Below, one piece after another: positions 18,942-36,014 of a stretch of 36,126 nt of DNA. The stretch's first letter is position 1; each line of letters begins with the position of its first letter. The DNA lies in contig JAITGU010000149.1 in the NCBI GenBank assembly GCA_031280375.1, positions 1 to 36,126 of the forward strand, written 5' to 3'. The notes under the pieces were generated by a model. It was not told where the DNA came from. It saw only the letters and a list, made by a program, of their open reading frames with translations, and searched no databases. The position numbers were made by a program, and so were the translations under genes. This stretch comes from Candidatus Methanovirga procula. Lineage in GTDB: Archaea > Methanobacteriota > Methanobacteria > Methanobacteriales > Methanobacteriaceae.

Positions 18942-19628
18942 ATGAATGTAGTAATTATTATTCCTGTATTTAACGAAGAGAAGTATATTAAAGATGTTGC
19001 AAAAAAATCATTGAAATATGGGGATGTTATTGTTGTTGATGATGGATCTTCAGATAAGACAAGTGAAAATGCAAGATTTTCTGGAGCAACAGTTATAGTT
19101 CATCAAAATAATAAAGGTAAAGGAGCAGCGATAAAAACTGGTATTAAACAAGCCTTAAACAATTCCTATGATACATTTATCTTCCTTGATGGTGATGGTC
19201 AGCACGACCCAAACCTAATCCCAATTTTTCTTGAAAAATTGGATAATGCAGATATTGTAATTGGTTCAAGATTTTTAAAAGGAGAATTAAAGAATATGCC
19301 TCCTCAAAGACGACTTTCTAATCAAATAACAACAAAATTAATATCTTTTATTTCCAAATATCCTTTAACAGATAGTCAATCTGGTTTTAGAGGAGTATCT
19401 AAAAAAATAGCTGAAAATTTCTTAAGCAGTCCCTATGATGATTATAGATTTGAATCAGATGTTTTAATCAACTCTTCAAACAAAGTAAACTTTGACGAAG
19501 TATCAATCCCAACAAGATACAGTGATGAAGTAAGTCATATAACAAAAACACATACAATAAAATATATCATCCTTTTTATTTCAAAAAGAACACTGAAACA
19601 TATTATTAATATAATTATTAAATTATAA
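18942..19628 (+). CDS. Family 2 glycosyltransferase (dolichyl-phosphate hexose synthase-like)
   Basis: This 228-residue GT-A enzyme has the N-terminal NVVIIIPVFNEEKYI, VIVVDDGSSDKT for nucleotide binding, NKGKGAAIKTGI, and the metal-binding DGDGQHDP. IGSRFLKGE and SQSGFRG follow. This pattern is that of dolichyl-phosphate mannose/glucose synthase-like proteins, which load a sugar onto a polyprenyl phosphate on the cytosolic side. Such a lipid-linked sugar would be the donor for GT39-type enzymes like those at 26657-29897. It lacks the C-terminal membrane helices found in some homologues. ATG at 18942 is preferred over TTG at 18933, which sits too close to the AGGT site. Confidence 0.8.
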   Translation: MNVVIIIPVFNEEKYIKDVAKKSLKYGDVIVVDDGSSDKTSENARFSGATVIVHQNNKGKGAAIKTGIKQALNNSYDTFIFLDGDGQHDPNLIPIFLEKLDNADIVIGSRFLKGELKNMPPQRRLSNQITTKLISFISKYPLTDSQSGFRGVSKKIAENFLSSPYDDYRFESDVLINSSNKVNFDEVSIPTRYSDEVSHITKTHTIKYIILFISKRTLKHIINIIIKL

Positions 19629-26300: not shown

Positions 26301-26468
26301 AACTTATTTTTAAAATCTTACTAAATTATTTTGTCTTGACAACTATTTTGAAACCATTAATATTATTAATAAATAGTATAATAATTTTTAAAATTAATAG
26401 TATATAAATATTGTTAAAATAATCATTAACTTTTAAAAAAAAAAATAGGCTCTTATATTTAATAATAC

Positions 26469-26566
26469 AAAAATAATGTATTTGATTTAATTAGACATAA
26501 TATATTTTATCTTCTAAATTACAAAATCCATAAAAATATTCATTCACTATTTTTAAATTTAAACAA
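26469..26566. repeat. Island-flanking repeat, left copy
   Basis: About 52 bases (AAATTACAAAATCCATAAAA, then ATATTCATTCACTATTTTTA) match 35959-36014 with one mismatch plus a short indel. A weaker match (AATGTATTTGATTTAATTA) extends it leftwards. It lies just past the 3' end of the adhesin-glycosyltransferase island, with its partner at the other edge in the same orientation. The rest of 26112-26656 is AT-rich without a gene. Confidence 0.55.
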
Positions 26567-26609
26567 GTAATGGTCATGCACCATAAATTACACGAACCAA
26601 GCCCATCTT

Positions 26610-26656: not shown

Positions 26657-27667
26657 TCACTTATGTAAAAGTTCATATATGTAAATTTCATTTCCTTTAT
26701 TAAGTCCCATTAAACCACCATCCTCATTTGACCTATGAACCATTATTAACTTCCTAAAAATAAAATCGCCATTAAACTCATCATCGAATAAAGAACTCAA
26801 ATAACTTTTTTGCAAAACAGGATAAATGCCTTTAAAAGAGGATACCCTTGATACAAAGTATTCCCTAAAACCAATAGACCCATTATAATCTTTTCTTGAG
26901 AAAATATAAATTTTCTTACCTCTTAAAAAAGAATCATTAACAATCCCACTCAATGCTTTCACTGTATCCTCAATATTATATTGAATAGACCCAGACCTAT
27001 AATTGCCCAAATCACTCAACTGTAAAAACCTGAATCTAAAATCAACAAAGTACACATTATTTCTTAATGTTGGTGATGCAAGAGTATAAACAAGACAAGA
27101 AGTATCTGCATCAATTGCAAAAGAAACAATCACTGACTGATTCTCATCAACATGTCCTAAAAAGTGTTTTATTTCATTAAGAGATATATGATTATCGTTT
27201 TCAACCCCAAAATATGTCACGGTATTGACACCACAAGATAGCAAAAATATTATAAATAAAGGTATGAAAACCTTCTTATCATCATACATTTTTTGTAGTA
27301 AAAAAGCAAAGGATAGCCAAATCACACCTAACATTAACCAAAAACTTTTATAACTCCACACAGGTTTAACAAGAGATATTAACAATGTTACTATAATACT
27401 GATTAGAAGTAAAATCAAACCACAAGATAAAAAGTTTGTTTTTAAGTTCTTTTTGTAAAAACAATAAATAGTTAAAACCACAAAAGAAGATAGTAATAAT
27501 AAAGCAAGCACAGTGAAAGATTTTGATGCAGAGAGCAAATAATAAAATAAATCATATAGATAGTTTATAGTAGGGAAACGAAACCAATCTGCATTCCCTA
27601 ACTTTATCTGGTTTAACAAAACAGGAACCCAAATAATAAATCCCAAAATTGAAATAGCCACTGACAT
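26657..27667 (-). CDS. GT39-like membrane glycosyltransferase, C-terminal part (split gene)
   Basis: This 336-residue piece carries the later membrane helices and the outside C-terminal domain of a dolichyl-phosphate-sugar-dependent glycosyltransferase. It continues the frame-broken N-terminal piece at 27667-28317: ILGFIIWVPVLLNQ aligns with VLFYVPWIVLLIYR in the intact neighbour at 28332-29897, and both share the block around PIFTFRYV/KPVWSYKS and the Asn/Ile-rich tail. The pieces overlap as TGATG, so re-initiation is possible, but a one-base indel near 27668-27690 would restore one protein of about 555 residues. A T-tract follows the stop. I favour a frameshifted gene over two real ones. 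Confidence 0.6.
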   Translation of the reverse strand: MSVAISILGFIIWVPVLLNQIKLGNADWFRFPTINYLYDLFYYLLSASKSFTVLALLLLSSFVVLTIYCFYKKNLKTNFLSCGLILLLISIIVTLLISLVKPVWSYKSFWLMLGVIWLSFAFLLQKMYDDKKVFIPLFIIFLLSCGVNTVTYFGVENDNHISLNEIKHFLGHVDENQSVIVSFAIDADTSCLVYTLASPTLRNNVYFVDFRFRFLQLSDLGNYRSGSIQYNIEDTVKALSGIVNDSFLRGKKIYIFSRKDYNGSIGFREYFVSRVSSFKGIYPVLQKSYLSSLFDDEFNGDFIFRKLIMVHRSNEDGGLMGLNKGNEIYIYELLHK

Positions 27668-28317
27668 CAGCCAAAGCTTAATATGCTCATACGTATAATA
27701 TTCTTATCATTTCTTAATAAGAAAATAAATAAGAGTAAATAAATAGAAAATACAGTGAAAAATGCCCCATAATGTGTGTATAGAGATAAAAGGGATAATA
27801 AAGACAAGATGATATAATTTTTTATTTTATTAGGTTTTTCACTGATTAGATAGGCAGTGAAAAAAGCTAATGTAAGGAATAGAATCCCCCAACAATAAGA
27901 ACGAATCTCTGTTGAGAAATGCATAATTCTTGGAGCTGAAATAATGGCTAATGAGAAAATCCCCGAAAATAACCAACCAAATCTTCTCCTAAGAACAGTT
28001 GAACCAAAAACCAATAAGAGTATTATGGGAATAATAGAAACTATTTTTAAGACGATAATTTCATTATATGTAATATTCAGAAGATTTAAAAGATTTAAAG
28101 TTATATATGAGATAAGATAGTATAATGGAGGATGAACATCAATAAGAATATTATGCCACATTAAACTAAAAGGCAAATCTAAAATAAAATGAAAAGTAAA
28201 AAACTCATCACTCCAAAAAGAAGCATCCAAAAAACAAAATACCAATACTAATAAAACAATGCTAACAATAAATAGACCAATCCCAAATAAATCCTCAAAT
28301 TCGTATTTAACTCTCAA
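27667..28317 (-). CDS. GT39-like membrane glycosyltransferase, N-terminal part (split gene)
   Basis: This piece of about 216 residues has the N-terminal helix LFGIGLFIVSIVLLVLVF followed by the first outside loop with the catalytic-type acidic pair in ASFWSDEFFTFHF and the VHPPLYYLISY motif. These are the marks of PMT/ArnT-like (GT-C) enzymes, which take a sugar from polyprenyl phosphate on the outer membrane face. It breaks off at RMSILSFG, where the intact neighbour continues. TTG at 28317 is chosen because AAGGTG lies seven bases upstream; a TTG at 28335 would overlap the preceding gene. It follows the intact paralogue by about 14 bases. Confidence 0.6.
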   Translation of the reverse strand: MRVKYEFEDLFGIGLFIVSIVLLVLVFCFLDASFWSDEFFTFHFILDLPFSLMWHNILIDVHPPLYYLISYITLNLLNLLNITYNEIIVLKIVSIIPIILLLVFGSTVLRRRFGWLFSGIFSLAIISAPRIMHFSTEIRSYCWGILFLTLAFFTAYLISEKPNKIKNYIILSLLSLLSLYTHYGAFFTVFSIYLLLFIFLLRNDKNIIRMSILSFG

Positions 28318-28331
28318 AACATGACACCTTA

Positions 28332-29897
28332 TCAATTTTCAATTAAATAGACACGATGTGGATAGTTAAATGAAGGATCAATTTCTCCTACTTCAACCAA
28401 TCTTAAATCGTTTTCTAAAAGTAAATTATTAAAATCATATAAATAATCACCCATATCAAAAATCCAAATCTTACCATTTCTCAATCCTGCACTTATATTT
28501 TTAATTATTGAAGATTTGTTATTCCAAACAATCATCAAATTATTAGGAAAATAAATTTCAAACCCATAACCTCTCCAACAAGGTTGACCTACAAATATTA
28601 TCATATCATTTTCATTTATTTGATTTGTATAACTATTGAATTCAAAAGAAGCAATTCCCCTATAATTTTCAAAATCAACAAAAGTAATCGTGTTTGTGAG
28701 ACCAACTAATAGAATTATTACTATAGTTGGAGTGAAAACTAATTTTTTCAAATAAAGCTTAGCTAATAAAACTGAAAATGAAAGCCAAAAACAGCCTAAT
28801 AAGGGAGTAACATACCTAAAAGTAAATATAGGTTTAACAAAAAAAGAAAACAACAACACAAAAAACATTGAAATAAGTAAAAGAAAAACACCCCCTTCAA
28901 TAAGAAAACTATTGAAACCTTTCTCTGTTTTTCTTATTCTAAATATATAGTGTCTGTCATGACAATAGATTAATAATGAGAATATAATAGAAGTGAACAA
29001 TAACAAGCTCAATATTGTTAAGCCATAATATTCACCTGTAAGTTGGATACCACTATAATCAAGTTTAATGGGAGAAAAAATAAACGAAAATAATTGAGAT
29101 ACAGTTTGAAAACCAGGACGAACCCATAACTGATCATTAGATGTTGAAAACATCGTTGATCTATAAATCAAAAGAACAATCCATGGAACATAAAATAATA
29201 CCATGATCACTACTGATAATATCCAATTTCTCAATAAAAGCTTATTTTTTAAAATCAAATATGCTAATATTAACAGATAAAGAAAACCAACAAAAATCAC
29301 ACAATAATAATGAGTATAAACTGCAAATAGATTGAATAAAGTGAAAATAATCCAATTTTTCTTATTAAACTCCCTAATAATTAAATAACCATAATAAAAA
29401 CTCAAAGTTATAAAAAACATTGCCCAGCTATACATTCGAATATCTGTAGCATAAAAGATTAATTTTGGCATTGTAGTGATGCAGAATGAAAAAATACCGA
29501 AACTCAACCATCCAAAATCTTTTCTAATTCTCACGAAACCAAAAATATATAGTAAAATAATTGGAATTAACGAAAACAACTTTAACCATAGAATACTAAA
29601 AACTACATTATGTGTGAAAATACGAAAAAATTCAAGCCAAATCTTCAATAATAAATAATATAATGGATGATGAGTATCACAGAATGTGAAACCATCAATC
29701 ACCATAGTAGGATTAAGCAAATTTAAAAAAGAAAAATCATTAATCCTATAAATAGAAAAAAATGCATCATCCCATAATGTCGCACTCAAACCAAACAACA
29801 ACATGAACAGTAGTAATAATATGCCTAAAATAAACAGACAAAAACCTAAACATTCACCAAAGTTTCTACTACAGATATTTTTACTAAAAAAATACAT
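28332..29897 (-). CDS. GT39-like (PMT/ArnT-type) membrane glycosyltransferase
   Basis: This protein of about 521 residues has roughly ten membrane helices and GT-C fold marks: the acidic pair in ATLWDDAFFSIYR in the first outside loop and CDTHHPLYYLLL shortly after. A soluble C-terminal part follows (about the last 110 residues, with IIFVGQPCWRGYG). Members transfer sugars from polyprenyl phosphate to protein or lipid on the outer face. ATG at 29897 sits seven bases past the adhesin stop behind AGTGAT; ATG at 29915 or TTG at 29921 would overlap the adhesin end. Either way it is tightly coupled to the adhesin, pointing to it as the likely substrate. Acceptor and sugar are unproven. Confidence 0.72.
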   Translation of the reverse strand: MYFFSKNICSRNFGECLGFCLFILGILLLLFMLLFGLSATLWDDAFFSIYRINDFSFLNLLNPTMVIDGFTFCDTHHPLYYLLLKIWLEFFRIFTHNVVFSILWLKLFSLIPIILLYIFGFVRIRKDFGWLSFGIFSFCITTMPKLIFYATDIRMYSWAMFFITLSFYYGYLIIREFNKKNWIIFTLFNLFAVYTHYYCVIFVGFLYLLILAYLILKNKLLLRNWILSVVIMVLFYVPWIVLLIYRSTMFSTSNDQLWVRPGFQTVSQLFSFIFSPIKLDYSGIQLTGEYYGLTILSLLLFTSIIFSLLIYCHDRHYIFRIRKTEKGFNSFLIEGGVFLLLISMFFVLLFSFFVKPIFTFRYVTPLLGCFWLSFSVLLAKLYLKKLVFTPTIVIILLVGLTNTITFVDFENYRGIASFEFNSYTNQINENDMIIFVGQPCWRGYGFEIYFPNNLMIVWNNKSSIIKNISAGLRNGKIWIFDMGDYLYDFNNLLLENDLRLVEVGEIDPSFNYPHRVYLIEN

Positions 29898-29904
29898 AAT
29901 ATCA

Positions 29905-31389
29905 CTAAGCAGCATTTTCAAGTGGTATAAATCCTAAATTTTCAGGTTTGTTATTAATAAAAATACATCCACTTCTGGCAGGATCAATAAGATAAGTGTA
30001 GTCTTCGCTTGACCAAAGAGCTACACCTCCACCACTACCAAGTGATGCTATGTTATCTTGAACTATTAATCCATGAATATTTCCAAACCGTCCTAAATTA
30101 CAAATACCTCCACCATTTAAGGCTTTATTCCCAACAAACATTGGATTATAAAAAGTATTGTTTATTGTAGTATTCAGCAAAGTTAAATTAGTTTCATAAC
30201 CATAATTATAAATACCTCCACCATAACCATTTGCAGTATTATTAAATATATCACAGGCATATATTTCACAACGATCATTATTTTTAATGCCTCCACCATT
30301 ATTACTTGCAATATTATATTTTATTTTAGGATAAGTAAATATTCCTGTACCATTAAATATACTAACTCCACCACCGTCATATTCAGCATTATTAGAATTT
30401 ATACTGCAAGTAGTGAACCTGCTTAATCCTTCATTTATGTTAACTCCGCCACCATCATTTGCACTATTGTCACTTATGTTGCAGTTTGTGAAGTTTCCAA
30501 AACCAAGATTCACATAGACGCCACCACCATACATTCTCGCAGTATTATTAGAAATACTACAATTAAAAATTGGAGGATTATTATCCTGTCCTAAATGTAT
30601 ACCACCACCACTATTAGCATTATTGTTTGTGAAGTTACAATTACTAATATAACATCTTGTATTGGTCTTAGTTATACTGATCCCACCGCCTCTATTTGAT
30701 GCTTCATTATTTGTGAAACTACAATTAATTATATGATTAGTTCCACCACCTGTTATAAAAACTCCTCCACCATCTTCTTCTGTCTTGCTTGAATCTATAA
30801 TGCAATCATACAAGTTCAAATTACTACCATTATTGAGTATTGCCCCACCACTTGTCATTGCATATCCATCTGTTAAATTAAGATCTTTTATAGTAACATT
30901 AACTTTAACATTAGGATCCATATTAAATATTTGATATCCATGACCATACACAGTCTTTTTACCGTTTTCACTTCTTATTGTAACATTTTTAGAAACATTA
31001 GATGTCTCATGCCATGCATTAAGATCACTTAGAACAACTATTGTTCCACCATCATTAACAAGTTCCACAGCCCTTTTTAAATTTTGAACAGGATCATCCA
31101 TTGTACCACTATTGTTATCATCACCACTATTACTAACATAAATCTGACCAAAATTGGAATTACTATAGTTTAATACTCTATTATTTTTAACATGAACTGG
31201 GACTCTTGCTAAATCAAGATAGCGATCTTCATTAAAAATTCCATTAATAGAAGTTCCGCAGGGTGAAAGTGAACTAGTTAATGATTCTCCAGTTTGAGTA
31301 AAATATGTTGCATTCACAGAAAATAAAAGAATAACAATTATCATCACATTTGTCAAAGATAAAAGAAATTTTAAATTTTTTTTTAACAT
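29905..31389 (-). CDS. Adhesin-like protein, beta-helix, no C-terminal anchor
   Basis: This 494-residue exported protein has a signal peptide (FLLSLTNVMIIVILLFSVNA) and a short linker. An entry segment follows with YVSNSGDDNNSGTMDDPVQN, then about ten turns of a right-handed beta-helix, each with a GGG(I/V/A) core such as NSGGGIHLGQ and YGGGVYVNLG, flanked by Asn/Ser-rich NNTA and SNNN. These repeats are typical of methanogen adhesin-like proteins. Unlike many, it has no Ig-like tail, membrane helix or wall-binding repeat and ends at LGFIPLENAA. It is either truncated or held otherwise. GGAGGTTAA precedes the ATG. The next gene, a GT39-like enzyme, begins within eight bases or overlaps. Confidence 0.8.
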   Translation of the reverse strand: MLKKNLKFLLSLTNVMIIVILLFSVNATYFTQTGESLTSSLSPCGTSINGIFNEDRYLDLARVPVHVKNNRVLNYSNSNFGQIYVSNSGDDNNSGTMDDPVQNLKRAVELVNDGGTIVVLSDLNAWHETSNVSKNVTIRSENGKKTVYGHGYQIFNMDPNVKVNVTIKDLNLTDGYAMTSGGAILNNGSNLNLYDCIIDSSKTEEDGGGVFITGGGTNHIINCSFTNNEASNRGGGISITKTNTRCYISNCNFTNNNANSGGGIHLGQDNNPPIFNCSISNNTARMYGGGVYVNLGFGNFTNCNISDNSANDGGGVNINEGLSRFTTCSINSNNAEYDGGGVSIFNGTGIFTYPKIKYNIASNNGGGIKNNDRCEIYACDIFNNTANGYGGGIYNYGYETNLTLLNTTINNTFYNPMFVGNKALNGGGICNLGRFGNIHGLIVQDNIASLGSGGGVALWSSEDYTYLIDPARSGCIFINNKPENLGFIPLENAA

Positions 31390-31430
31390 TATATTAACCT
31401 CCGTCTTTTAAAAAAGGATATTTATTTACA

Positions 31431-31441
31431 ACTTATAAAAT
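31431..31441 (-). promoter_or_regulatory. TATA-like box shared by both adhesin genes
   Basis: ACTTATAAAAT on the plus strand (ATTTTATAAGT on the coding strand) lies about 42 bases before the adhesin start at 31389. The same 11 bases recur about 67 bases before the other adhesin start. It fits an archaeal TATA box in sequence; the transcription start is not known. Confidence 0.45.
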
Positions 31442-31527
31442 TCAAATTTTTATTTGAGTAAAAAGTTTAAAAATCAAAACATGATTTCTTTAATAACATA
31501 GTTCAAGTATTATTAATAAGTTATTTA

Positions 31528-32172
31528 TTAATGGATTCTTACAAAATTTTTTATTATTGAAGTATAAGACCTCCTCGCAAAAAAAGAATAATTATATTTA
31601 TTAAATAATCCATCTAAACTCATATCAAAGTCAATCATGAAATAAGACCCTGATCCAAAATACATATCAGAGTCACTGAAAATACAGTCTACTCTCAATG
31701 GGTACCACCCCCAATTTCGAGTTTTAATATTATAATTACAATAGCCCACTCCATTCACGAAATTAATATTACGGTATTCATAATTATTCTGAGTATACTC
31801 TTTTACACCAACAACATAATTTCCATTAACTGGAATATCAGCAGATGTTATAAATTTGATATTGATTGTATCATTATATCTACAACTACTCGCATTTGAT
31901 GATGCTTCCATTGTTGTATTAAACTTATTATAATGAACATGTGGTTCATAACGACTATAATCATAATAATACTTTCTGGATTCTACCTGCCTATATTGAT
32001 TTTTTAGGAATTCAACTACAAAATTATTCGTAAGTCTATTTATAGTATAATCAACATTAGCTTCACCATTTTCAAAGTGCAGTATCTTTTCGTCATTATT
32101 GATTTTCACTTTATAGTTCCCATCTTTTATATTATTACCATCAGTCGTTGTGACCTTAATTCTAATATTAAT
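31528..32172 (-). pseudogene. Adhesin C-terminal fragment, Ig-like domains, no start
   Basis: An open frame without a good start codon follows directly, in the same frame, after the stop of the adhesin at 32176. It reads IRIKVTTTDGNNIKDGNYKV and then NGEANVDYTINRLTNN, with later VPVNGNYVVGVKEYTQNN-like sequence, the pattern of Ig-like beta repeats from the stalk of methanogen adhesins. The tail becomes unusual (YSFFARRSYTSIIKNFVRIH). A GTG at 32109 is the first possible start, but no ribosome site supports it. It is best read as debris of another adhesin, left by recombination or a nonsense change. Confidence 0.55.
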
Positions 32173-32175
32173 AGT

Positions 32176-33225
32176 TTATCCTATGTATACATTTTCTGGC
32201 ATTTCAACATAAGTAACTGTAGATACTGACTCTTCTCCTGTGAATTTGTCCTTAACAAGCCATGTTACTAATGACCCCACACCAGCTGAAAATATGCTCA
32301 TTAGAATACTAGATATAAGTTTATGTGATTTCACCCAATTAGAAATGCTATCATACTTACAATACAAAAGAATACAACCCATTATAATCAAAGCTGAAGT
32401 CAAACCAACTCCAGTCCACAGATATGGATTATGTTCAGTAGGAATATCTAATTTAACTTCAACTTCGTCTTGTGATGTTAGGAGTACTAAATCTCCTGCA
32501 GTAGCATCATCATCAAGATTATAGCACTTCATGTAATGCCCATTATCGCCAATATGTGCTTTAAAATACCCATCCTTTTTATATTCATTAATACTTTTTT
32601 GACTAGGGCGAACAAAGCCTTGTATAAAATACCTTGCTTTACTTAATGTAGAATCCAACAAAATTAAATTCGTATTAACATATAGTCTATCATCTTCGTT
32701 TATATTATCCAAACTATTTTCAAGCATATCACAATCAGTAATATTAAATTTTTTATTAATACCAACTATTACTTCTGTATTTTGTGATAGTGAATTATTA
32801 GTAAAATTAGAATAAGACATATTAAATTCTGGAGACATACTTAAAATTGCACTGCCTTTATAAGCATTGTTTTTTATAAAAGATGAATTACTAATAGTTA
32901 AATAATTTTCTTGGGTAGGATGAGTGGTGCTTAATTTTCTTCCATAATCTGAAAATCTGAAATTAAATTGATTAGAATGAGATTTAGAGCTGAATTGGTT
33001 AGTAAAGATCTGATTAGATGTACTTTTATTATAATCATATAAACTAACGATTGCTCCTCCAAATCCACTAACATTATTATTCTCAAAAACACATTCATTA
33101 ACATTTAAATTTGATTCATTATTCGTTATACCAGCACCATCTAAACCAAAACCGTTTATAAAGTGTAAAGATTCAATATTCACAGTTAATCCAGGCACTA
33201 TATTCATTATTTTAGTTTTATTCAA
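32176..33225 (-). CDS. Adhesin-like protein, C-terminal part (frameshifted gene)
   Basis: This 349-residue piece begins in the middle of a beta-helix (IVPGLTVNIESLHFINGFGL, then SGFGGAIVSLYD) and ends with two membrane helices (about 268-289 and 305-324) separated by a basic loop, plus a short tail ENVYIG. It has no signal peptide and its first codon is a TTG without a ribosome site. Read one frame over, the preceding gene ends NVTKNVKIKSDKG just before KLKLNGLNKTKIMNI here, a normal adhesin sequence. One missing base in GGAAATT (33238-33246) explains the split. Together they form an adhesin of about 1120 residues anchored by its C-terminus. Confidence 0.7.
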   Translation of the reverse strand: MNKTKIMNIVPGLTVNIESLHFINGFGLDGAGITNNESNLNVNECVFENNNVSGFGGAIVSLYDYNKSTSNQIFTNQFSSKSHSNQFNFRFSDYGRKLSTTHPTQENYLTISNSSFIKNNAYKGSAILSMSPEFNMSYSNFTNNSLSQNTEVIVGINKKFNITDCDMLENSLDNINEDDRLYVNTNLILLDSTLSKARYFIQGFVRPSQKSINEYKKDGYFKAHIGDNGHYMKCYNLDDDATAGDLVLLTSQDEVEVKLDIPTEHNPYLWTGVGLTSALIIMGCILLYCKYDSISNWVKSHKLISSILMSIFSAGVGSLVTWLVKDKFTGEESVSTVTYVEMPENVYIG

Positions 33226-33236
33226 GCCATTTAACT

Positions 33237-35528
33237 TTAATTTCCTTTATCACTTTTTATCTTAACATTCTTAGTCACATTAATAGTTTCAGTAATACTG
33301 AGATCAGTTAATAGATGAATTGTCCCATTAGGTTTAACAATATTCATCGCATAATTGACATTAGCCACAGGATTATTAATACCACCCAAATTATCATTAC
33401 TTCCATTAAAAGCAACATAAATATCACTTAAAGATTCAAAAGGATCAGTATAATTATATTCATAATTATCAACTTTTATAGATACTTTATCCCTTTGATG
33501 TAAATCAAAAATTTGATTATTTCGAGCATCAAAACTGAAATTTTTATCACTCAAAATACAAAATCCATCAAAATAAGGAAGTAACGACTTATTATTAGGG
33601 TAATTATCATTAGTGTTGAAAACATAATTAAGTGTATTATTAGATTTATTAGTAGATGAGTTCACAATGAAATAATGCTCTGGAATGTGATTAGTTTGTT
33701 TTGTTGTGAGATCATTAGCCCCCCACCAGTTGAAATCTAAATTAATTAATCCTTCTCCATAAAAATCTTCGCCTTCTTCAAACCAGCTATTTTTATTATT
33801 TAATATTCTATTATAATTAACATTACTAACATTATTTGAACTAATAAAAAAACCACCACCTCTGTATGCAGAGTTATTTATAATATTAGATCTTGCAATA
33901 TTTACAAATGCAGAAAAAAATAAGCATATTCCTCCTCCAAAATCCGTTGCTTTATTATTTAAGACATTAGAATTTGTAATAACATTGTTTATACCACCCC
34001 CCATCATATGAATCCCAGCACCATTAACTGCTGCGTTATTTACAACAGTGCAATTATCAATAGTAGCATTGTTACCACTAAGTATAGCAATTCCACCCCC
34101 ATCACCCAGAACTTTATTATTAACAAGTGTACAATTTTTAATGATGGTATTATCAGCTCCAAGCGAAAGAATTGCACCACCATCACCATTAAAATTCGCA
34201 CCTTTAATTGTCAAGCCTTCAAGTCTCACATTATCGGATAAAATCTTAAATCCATTATCATTTTTGCCTGTTAAGTCTATGACAGGATGACCATCATCCT
34301 TAGATTTTATCGTTAATGGTTTTGTGATTATAAGATTACAATCTCTTATAGAATCATCTTTACTACCTTTATTATATATTCCATCAGGCAGTTCTATCAC
34401 AGTGTTAGGTTCCGCTTCGTCAATTAACTCTTTTATAGAGTCAACAGTATTTGAAAAAATTATTATCTTCAAACATTGATTATCAACAACACTCTCAAAA
34501 CTCTGATTAAATAAGTACTTAGCTTCACACTGAAAATTATAAGGTTCTCTCCCATCCTTAATTATAGATTCATTAATAAAATTATGTTTAACTGAGAAAT
34601 AAGGTAATAAATTATTATTATCTGTTCTATTAGTTGTGTTAAGAACCAAATCATATCCAATGTTTACATTACTACCATCAATAAAACCAACAGAAGTATT
34701 ATCTGTAGTAATATTATTATTCAAGTATAAAACTGTTGAGTAATGATCATTCGGAACAACATTGGTTTGTGTGCTATTCACGGTATTAGATCCCCACCAA
34801 TTATGATCCAAATTAATTGAATCTTTAAGGGAGTTACCATCCATATCATGAAGTTCCTTAACAAAAACATCATCATAACTATCAAAGTTATTATTAGATG
34901 CTTTATTATTGTAAAACCTACAATGATTTATACTAACATTATAAACATTTCTACCATCGTAATTATCTATATAAACTCCAGCACCATTATCACTAACTTT
35001 ATTATCTACAATGTTACAGCCAGAAATATTAACATTACTATTACTTACATATACACCCCCACCCATGGAATTTGTAGCATTAGTAATATTACAATTGTTT
35101 ATGGTTGCATTAGCCTGGTTTCGTATCAGAATTCCATTACTAACATTACATCCATTAATTGTTAATCCTTCAAGTTTAAAATTAGCTCCATTTAGAGTAA
35201 TAATAGTGCCTTTATTAGTAGGTCTTTTTGATAGGATAGGATTTCCACCAACTCCTGATGCTTTTAATGTTATACTTTTAGCAATAATACCTGATGATGT
35301 TTTATAATCACCACCATCTAATAAAATAGTATCTCCATCCTTTGCATTATCAACAGCCTCTTCAATAGAATCTCCAGGATGAAGATTAATAATCTTACCA
35401 TCACGATTTTCATATAATGCATCATGCCCTAAAACATTCATTGGAATCAGACTAAACAATAGTAAATAAATAATCCAACAACCAAGTATACATTTACCTC
35501 TTAAATGACTTAATTTCTTCTTCAACAT
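33237..35528 (-). CDS. Adhesin-like protein, N-terminal part (frameshifted gene)
   Basis: This piece of about 763 residues starts with a signal peptide (CILGCWIIYLLLFSLIPMNV then LGHDA) and contains two pectin-lyase-like beta-helix blocks. Each block is introduced by an entry motif (DSIEEAVDNAKDGDTILLDG near 50-70; KELIDEAEPNTVIELPDG near 370) and closed by an NLDHNWWGSN or NLDFNWWGAND element. Turns carry GGGVYV, GGGIAI and GGGFFI with Asn-rich flanks, which would offer many N-glycosylation sequons. A third entry motif, VAFNGSNDNLGGINNPVANV, starts just before the frameshift. ATG at 35528 is chosen because GAGGT lies about eight bases upstream. It probably is a surface adhesin, but whether it is still made whole is doubtful. 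Confidence 0.75.
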   Translation of the reverse strand: MLKKKLSHLRGKCILGCWIIYLLLFSLIPMNVLGHDALYENRDGKIINLHPGDSIEEAVDNAKDGDTILLDGGDYKTSSGIIAKSITLKASGVGGNPILSKRPTNKGTIITLNGANFKLEGLTINGCNVSNGILIRNQANATINNCNITNATNSMGGGVYVSNSNVNISGCNIVDNKVSDNGAGVYIDNYDGRNVYNVSINHCRFYNNKASNNNFDSYDDVFVKELHDMDGNSLKDSINLDHNWWGSNTVNSTQTNVVPNDHYSTVLYLNNNITTDNTSVGFIDGSNVNIGYDLVLNTTNRTDNNNLLPYFSVKHNFINESIIKDGREPYNFQCEAKYLFNQSFESVVDNQCLKIIIFSNTVDSIKELIDEAEPNTVIELPDGIYNKGSKDDSIRDCNLIITKPLTIKSKDDGHPVIDLTGKNDNGFKILSDNVRLEGLTIKGANFNGDGGAILSLGADNTIIKNCTLVNNKVLGDGGGIAILSGNNATIDNCTVVNNAAVNGAGIHMMGGGINNVITNSNVLNNKATDFGGGICLFFSAFVNIARSNIINNSAYRGGGFFISSNNVSNVNYNRILNNKNSWFEEGEDFYGEGLINLDFNWWGANDLTTKQTNHIPEHYFIVNSSTNKSNNTLNYVFNTNDNYPNNKSLLPYFDGFCILSDKNFSFDARNNQIFDLHQRDKVSIKVDNYEYNYTDPFESLSDIYVAFNGSNDNLGGINNPVANVNYAMNIVKPNGTIHLLTDLSITETINVTKNVKIKSDKGN

Positions 35529-35594
35529 TATTTCAACCTCGGACAATTATCGAGAATTTTTATTAACCTACCAAAAATAGCATATTTTGATAAG

Positions 35595-35605
35595 ACTTAT
35601 AAAAT
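35595..35605 (-). promoter_or_regulatory. TATA-like box upstream of the first adhesin
   Basis: ACTTATAAAAT here is identical to 31431-31441 and stands about 67 bases before the ATG at 35528 on the coding strand. The shared 11-mer suggests a common promoter type for both adhesins. Confidence 0.45.
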
Positions 35606-35913
35606 ATTGAAACTTTCATATTAACCTAATGTTGTGGTAGTATATAAAGGTGCCGATTATTCACACTCTCCTCTATGGTTTTAATTTTAGTATTATAGAC
35701 TTTTATAGATTATATAGTGTAAATTACGATTATAAACAATATAATTAATCTATTCAGCTGAAAAAATGTATGAATTATTGTTAAAAAGCACGGTGACAAA
35801 TTAAATAGAATTGACCAAATAATAGAATATAATAAATATTTTAAATTATGAAATATAAATATAGTTTTTTAATATTAATTTTTTGTAAAAGACTCTTGGA
35901 TACTATAATGACA

Positions 35914-36014
35914 AAAAAAATGTATTGATTTAATTAAATGTGGACATGATATATGTTTAAATTACAAAATCCATGAAAATATTCATTCACTATTTTTAAA
36001 TTTAAATAAACAAG
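35914..36014. repeat. Island-flanking repeat, right copy
   Basis: AAATTACAAAATCCATGAAA then ATATTCATTCACTATTTTTA matches 26516-26566, in the same orientation. It lies in the 598-base stretch upstream of the first adhesin, which otherwise holds the promoter and no visible gene. By analogy with the left copy, it may lie just past the 3' end of another surface gene beyond the window. Confidence 0.55.

Follow-up and report, generated by a model that had tools for sequence, protein, structure and literature searches.

Adhesin and GT-C glycosyltransferase genes in a partly broken cluster of a Candidatus Methanovirga genome

In bacteria, an adhesin gene is paired with a glycosyltransferase gene in TibA/TibC and HMW1A/HMW1C, whose enzymes are soluble, cytoplasmic and nucleotide-sugar-using; to our knowledge, no protein O-glycosylation enzyme has been established in methanogens. 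Here, we analysed a 36,126-nucleotide stretch (the window) of Candidatus Methanovirga, a termite-gut methanogen, in which two beta-helix adhesin genes, A1 and A2, are followed by two membrane glycosyltransferase genes, GT1 and GT2. The linkage of the two gene types resembles that of the bacterial pairs, but the enzymes in the window are membrane proteins of the GT-C class without a conserved partner. An earlier note on this DNA had proposed a dedicated, self-contained adhesin glycosylation unit, which, if real, would give a direct handle on methanogen protein O-glycosylation. The present data argue against such a unit; they suggest instead that a GT-C family has expanded and is turning over fast in a genus living inside termite gut flagellates. 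The cluster is probably a partly decayed surface-gene neighbourhood with one intact, divergent GT-C gene rather than a dedicated adhesin-glycosylation machine.

The three-component Gtr system comprises a GtrA flippase, a GtrB polyprenyl-phosphate-sugar synthase and a GT-C transferase (PMC8035078, PMC11127046). GT1 shares the GT-C fold and the genes of its relatives adjoin GtrA and/or GtrB-like genes, but the window unit contains neither a GtrA nor a GtrB gene, the sole family-2 glycosyltransferase lies about 7 kb away on the other strand, and the known acceptors of Gtr are mostly cell-wall or O-antigen glycans. The PMT_2 / CAZy GT39 protein O-mannosyltransferases belong to the same superfamily, and some paralogs of GT1 pass PF13231; GT1 itself, however, fails the curated cut-off of PF13231/PF02366 and has an altered acidic motif. 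ArnT (GT83), the lipid A aminoarabinose transferase, is among the nearest folds of GT1 and of similar length, though their identity is 11-12% and archaea have no lipid A. Among the adhesin-like proteins of gut methanogens (beta-helix/Ig-like; PMC13135261), A1 and A2 find counterparts in their beta-helix repeats, Asn richness and N-terminal signal-like segment, but A1 is broken and A2 lacks a membrane anchor. Methanobrevibacter smithii, also a gut methanogen, has structure-predicted ArnT/POMT-like GT-C enzymes (PMC10939349); the available part of that report describes no adhesin linkage, whereas the Methanovirga family has multiple copies per genome, many of which are broken.

Members of Methanovirga live inside gut flagellates of lower termites. 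Compared with their relatives, they have an elevated number of pseudogenes and fewer adhesin-like proteins, which has been read as a possible adaptation to intra-flagellate life (PMC13135261; PMC11287868). The window is contig C10 of the draft metagenome-assembled genome G000 (2.25 Mb, 197 contigs, 85% complete), whose closest relative is G002. Among named organisms, Candidatus Methanovirga basalitermitum has the nearest relative of its glycosyltransferase. The comparison set, DNA only, comprised six draft Methanovirga genomes, 63-93% complete, in which many contigs stop at repeats; loci are cited below as genome:contig, and the neighbouring genes (rrp42, purine genes, S24e, glmS and PheT) were named by eye from their translations.

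Two intact and two broken genes

The minus strand of the window carries, in order, A1 (35528 to 31528), A2 (31389-29905), GT1 (29921-28332) and GT2 (28317-26657). The gene content, order and common strand given in the earlier note are thus borne out by the window sequence, but only A2 and GT1 are intact, A1 and GT2 being broken. The open reading frame (ORF) of A1 is listed from a TTG at 35546, with an ATG at 35528. Its 5' part (33237..35528, minus strand) encodes an N-terminal hydrophobic segment and a beta-helix matching Pfam Beta_helix (1.4e-11), and stops at a frameshift located between 33246 and 33225, the frame ending at 33237. Its 3' part (31528..33225, minus strand), in another frame, encodes the remaining beta-helix, two hydrophobic segments and C-terminal domains of Ig-like type. 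An in-frame TAA at 32178-32176 breaks this part; homologous sequence resumes past both the frameshift and the stop. A2 (29905..31389, minus strand) is an intact beta-helix protein of 494 aa (Beta_helix, 9.4e-10) with an N-terminal signal-like segment. Hydropathy and the alignment with its nearest paralogs (G000:C53 and G002:C121) indicate that it has no C-terminal membrane anchor, and these paralogs likewise lack one. Adhesin-like proteins are recognised by beta-helix and/or Ig-like repeats combined with a secretion signal; both A1 and A2 have the Beta_helix match and an N-terminal hydrophobic segment.

The adhesins had also been described as rich in Asn-Ser/Thr sites. A mild excess of N-x-S/T sequons over shuffled sequences is indeed present in the A1 5' part (27 vs 16) and in A2 (19 vs 12), partly reflecting the composition of these Asn-rich proteins, but the count in the A1 3' part (13 vs 11) is not significant. 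Sequon richness as a sign of GT39-type modification was rejected, since such sites are relevant to the N-glycan oligosaccharyltransferase AglB/STT3, whose gene is on another contig (C63), and not to GT39-type enzymes.

GT1 (28332..29921, minus strand) encodes 529 aa from a TTG at 29921. The A2 stop is at 29907-29905 and the candidate starts of GT1 are this TTG and an ATG at 29915, both within A2, or an ATG at 29897, 7 nt past the stop. Depending on the start chosen, the ORFs overlap by 17 nt or are separated by 7 nt, so that a GT1 start within eight bases of the A2 stop, or overlapping it, is confirmed by the coordinates. GT1 is a polytopic membrane protein, for which an AlphaFold model built from a 20-relative alignment (pLDDT 84, pTM 0.87) has a GT-C fold; in Foldseek, the nearest solved structures are ArnT (5ezm, 5f15), ALG12 and STT3, with E values of 2e-7 to 5e-5. 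No Pfam match was obtained even at E 10, and none in NCBIfam or PHROGs. In the family alignment, GT1 keeps 63 of the 69 near-invariant positions, with deviations in the acidic motif of the first extracytoplasmic loop (DExxT to DDAFF) and at DVHPPLYY (DTHHPLYY), which make its activity less certain than its fold. The same DD is found at the acidic motif of another family member, G004:C181. In the family tree, the terminal branch of GT1 is long (0.9).

Since its fold is close to those of ArnT, ALG12 and STT3, a polyprenyl-phosphate donor is reasonable for GT1. Together with the GtrA/GtrB-like neighbours of its relatives, the fold supports the PMT/ArnT-like class proposed earlier and makes it reasonable to suggest that the acceptor would be at the outer face of the membrane. 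A family 2 synthase at 18942-19628 had been put forward as able to supply the donor. This gene exists, its best matches being PpgS and AglJ, both sub-threshold, and it could supply a lipid-linked sugar; nothing, however, ties it to the cluster. It is on the opposite strand, about 7 kb past the near end of the unit, and separately conserved, with orthologs of 70-87% identity in four other species.

GT2 consists of two ORFs (27667-28335 and 26657-27667), over which paralogs align in two frames in tblastn searches. Its N-terminal half (27667..28317, minus strand), with a likely TTG start at 28317, stops at a frameshift, and the C-terminal half (26657..27667, minus strand) follows in another frame. 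An intact ortholog of 53-63% identity is found in a related species (G004:C90) as a single 554-aa ORF. A programmed frameshift or split gene is not supported, the ortholog being one ORF and the homology continuous through the break. GT2 clusters in the tree with G004:C90 and copies from another genus, and GT1 falls within a 21-member Methanovirga radiation; their separate clades rule out a tandem duplication.

The GT-C family and the recurrence of the pairing

The GT-C family is expanded in Methanovirga, where the same query gave about 6-13 matches per genome (10 in G000 and 7-13 in its relatives), compared with 0-2 in most of the other Methanobacteriaceae genomes sampled. Since a second query found up to 5 matches per genome outside Methanovirga, this contrast partly reflects query distance. 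Many of the Methanovirga copies are broken, and the family has probably turned over within the genus as it expanded. Matches to PMT_2 were obtained for 2 of 20 family members, other paralogs matching GtrII; the paralogs of one clade, associated with a small protein called p150 (see below), score 26.7-29.7 bits against the PF13231 (PMT_2) cut-off of 26.1. Family members from other methanogens and from Diplocloster have GtrA and/or GtrB-like family-2 glycosyltransferase genes as neighbours, and at G002:C140 a GtrA gene is beside one. Most paralogs adjoin housekeeping genes (rrp42, purine genes, S24e, glmS, PheT) or other secreted proteins. At the conserved rrp42 (exosome) and/or ribosomal L37Ae site, a GT-C ortholog is present in five of the six genomes (L059, L066, L068, L070, L071), one side being cut by a contig end in several of them.

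Across about 35 loci of this family in the six Methanovirga genomes, an adhesin gene directly upstream of the glycosyltransferase was observed only in the window and at G004:C90, where it is an eroded C-terminal remnant. By the recurrence survey suggested in the earlier note, the claim of a dedicated unit therefore largely fails. From about 70 adhesin genes among some 9,300 genes (our count, estimated with genome sizes), around 0.26 adhesin neighbours would be expected among 35 loci and, the discovery locus aside, one was observed; the recurrence is thus about at chance level. None of 13 other adhesin genes inspected in G000 was followed by a glycosyltransferase in the visible sequence, some of which reaches a contig edge. 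Furthermore, a gene for a secreted protein of 106-110 aa, and no glycosyltransferase gene, comes after the pair of A1 and A2 type at G000:C53 and after the A2-type gene at G002:C121. Outside Methanovirga, one of about two dozen loci inspected (G128:C28) carries a related GT-C gene preceded, at a distance of 195 bp, by an intact adhesin-like gene.

At G004:C90, a MITE-like insert of 354 bp (L094 760-1113) separates the adhesin remnant from the glycosyltransferase. It ends in inverted repeats of 12 bp (CAGGGTGTCTCA) and is accompanied by a target duplication of 11 bp (TTTTTAGATAG). Orthology of this remnant with A1 was considered and is not shown, its Ig-like domain being closer to those of G002:C109 and G000:C53.

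The whole cluster is flanked by a dispersed intergenic repeat of about 150 bp in direct orientation, with one copy just beyond GT2 (26440..26600, minus strand) and a second upstream of A1 (35887..36009, minus strand), 9443 bp from the first. Additional copies occur at G000:C162, G000:C138 (upstream of an adhesin) and G002:C53. On G003:C281 (L197 2001-2378), the likeness to the left flank stops at about position 26408 of the window, just before the repeat, and unrelated genes follow; the cluster is therefore probably absent from this place in G003. In G002, where synteny of the unit was also looked for, the contig stops 141 bp after the MscS gene, a gene that is also broken in G003:C281.

Readings of the cluster

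Each pair has one broken gene, and adhesin-glycosyltransferase pairing is all but missing elsewhere; we therefore favour a decaying neighbourhood over a dedicated unit. An adhesin pair, A1 broken and A2 intact, would here adjoin two mutually unrelated members of the GT-C family, GT1 intact and GT2 frameshifted. Most likely, GT1 would move a sugar from a polyprenyl-phosphate carrier to an outer-face acceptor, like the last component of Gtr or ArnT, and this acceptor would more likely be a cell-surface glycan or general surface material than A2 specifically. Several observations weigh against this interpretation. A2 and GT1 are so close that their translation could be coupled, and the GT2 ortholog at G004:C90 also follows an adhesin remnant, from which it would be only about 25 nt apart without the inserted element. 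The dN/dS of GT2 is about 0.25 on either side of the frameshift near 27667, as expected for a gene constrained and functional until recently, so its loss is recent or the break is an assembly error. Since genes of secreted proteins accompany other GT-C copies, a surface protein may be the acceptor.

A dedicated unit, in which GT1 and formerly GT2 would glycosylate the co-transcribed adhesin after its secretion, draws on the common strand, the A2-GT1 junction and the loci G004:C90 and G128:C28, the latter in another genus. It appears doubtful, given that no further pairing is found among the Methanovirga loci or the other G000 adhesins inspected, that the adhesin cassette occurs without a glycosyltransferase, that half of the unit is broken and that the two enzymes belong to different clades. 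It is also unlikely that the whole cluster is a relic, with GT1 drifting as well and already without function. The lesions in two of the four genes, the long branch of GT1 and its motif changes would fit this reading; on the other hand, GT1 is open across 529 codons, retains most near-invariant positions and gives a confident GT-C model, and its DD is shared with G004:C181. Assembly artefacts in an otherwise intact set of four genes seem very improbable. The incomplete and fragmented draft genome, the small size of the indels and the constraint on both GT2 halves would agree with them, but three independent lesions affect two genes, the GT2 lesion is outside long homopolymers, and pseudogenes, other glycosyltransferase copies included, are common in Methanovirga (PMC11287868). 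The partly decayed surface-gene neighbourhood thus remains the probable reading.

The p150 genes and a shared upstream element

The link between p150 and its GT-C clade, and an upstream element of about 300 bp, are more interesting by-products than the adhesin-glycosyltransferase unit. Genes for a single-TM protein of about 150 aa (p150) were found at seven loci in five Methanovirga genomes, and every one of them lies upstream of a member of a single, fully supported monophyletic GT-C clade; the loci are L061, L092, L095, L096, L098, L099 and L104, corresponding to G000:C165, G001:C184, G004:C238, G002:C173, G002:C208, G002:C140 and G005:C24. From this sequence association, p150 and its clade would be more promising as a protein-enzyme pair than the adhesins and their neighbours. 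Distant relatives of p150 are present in other genera. In another arrangement, secreted/membrane proteins of 517 aa (p517) and 244 aa (p244) are followed by two GT-C genes, at L097 2309-8165 (G002:C129) and L156 9724-15575 (G000:C46); this cluster is intact in G002, and both of its GT-C genes are broken in G000.

The promoter-like or leader element lies upstream of A1 (35531..35828, minus strand), has a conserved TATA-like sequence TTTATATA and is common to other secreted-protein modules. With about 74-79% identity, it recurs before the C53 and C109 adhesins, the p150-GT modules and the p517-p244-GT-GT modules; copies lie, among other places, at L089 8022-8369, L156 15601-15894, L098 2348-2677 and L245 3316-3501. 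Besides the TATA, it contains a repeated TAGGTTAATA motif and a possible GAGTTTC/GAAACTC stem. A conserved RNA hairpin in the leader was rejected: although its arms pair in the majority of copies, covariation is no better than in shuffles (fraction 0.10-0.12). The element has no match in Rfam. In a 0.75-Mb sample of contigs, picked in order of their number regardless of content, a gene lay within 700 nt of nine copies, and five of these nine genes were secreted-like, a crude class based on hydropathy only, versus 9.4% in the background (binomial P 7e-4). Copies also precede non-secreted genes and, among the sequence examined, were found only in G000 and G002. One could imagine a surface-glycosylation regulon used in contact with the flagellate host, in which secreted or anchored proteins (adhesins, p150, p517/p244) would each have their own GT-C enzyme under this shared promoter-leader, the window being a partly decayed member, but we regard it as rather unlikely. 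The shared upstream element itself is a testable candidate for a surface-gene promoter.

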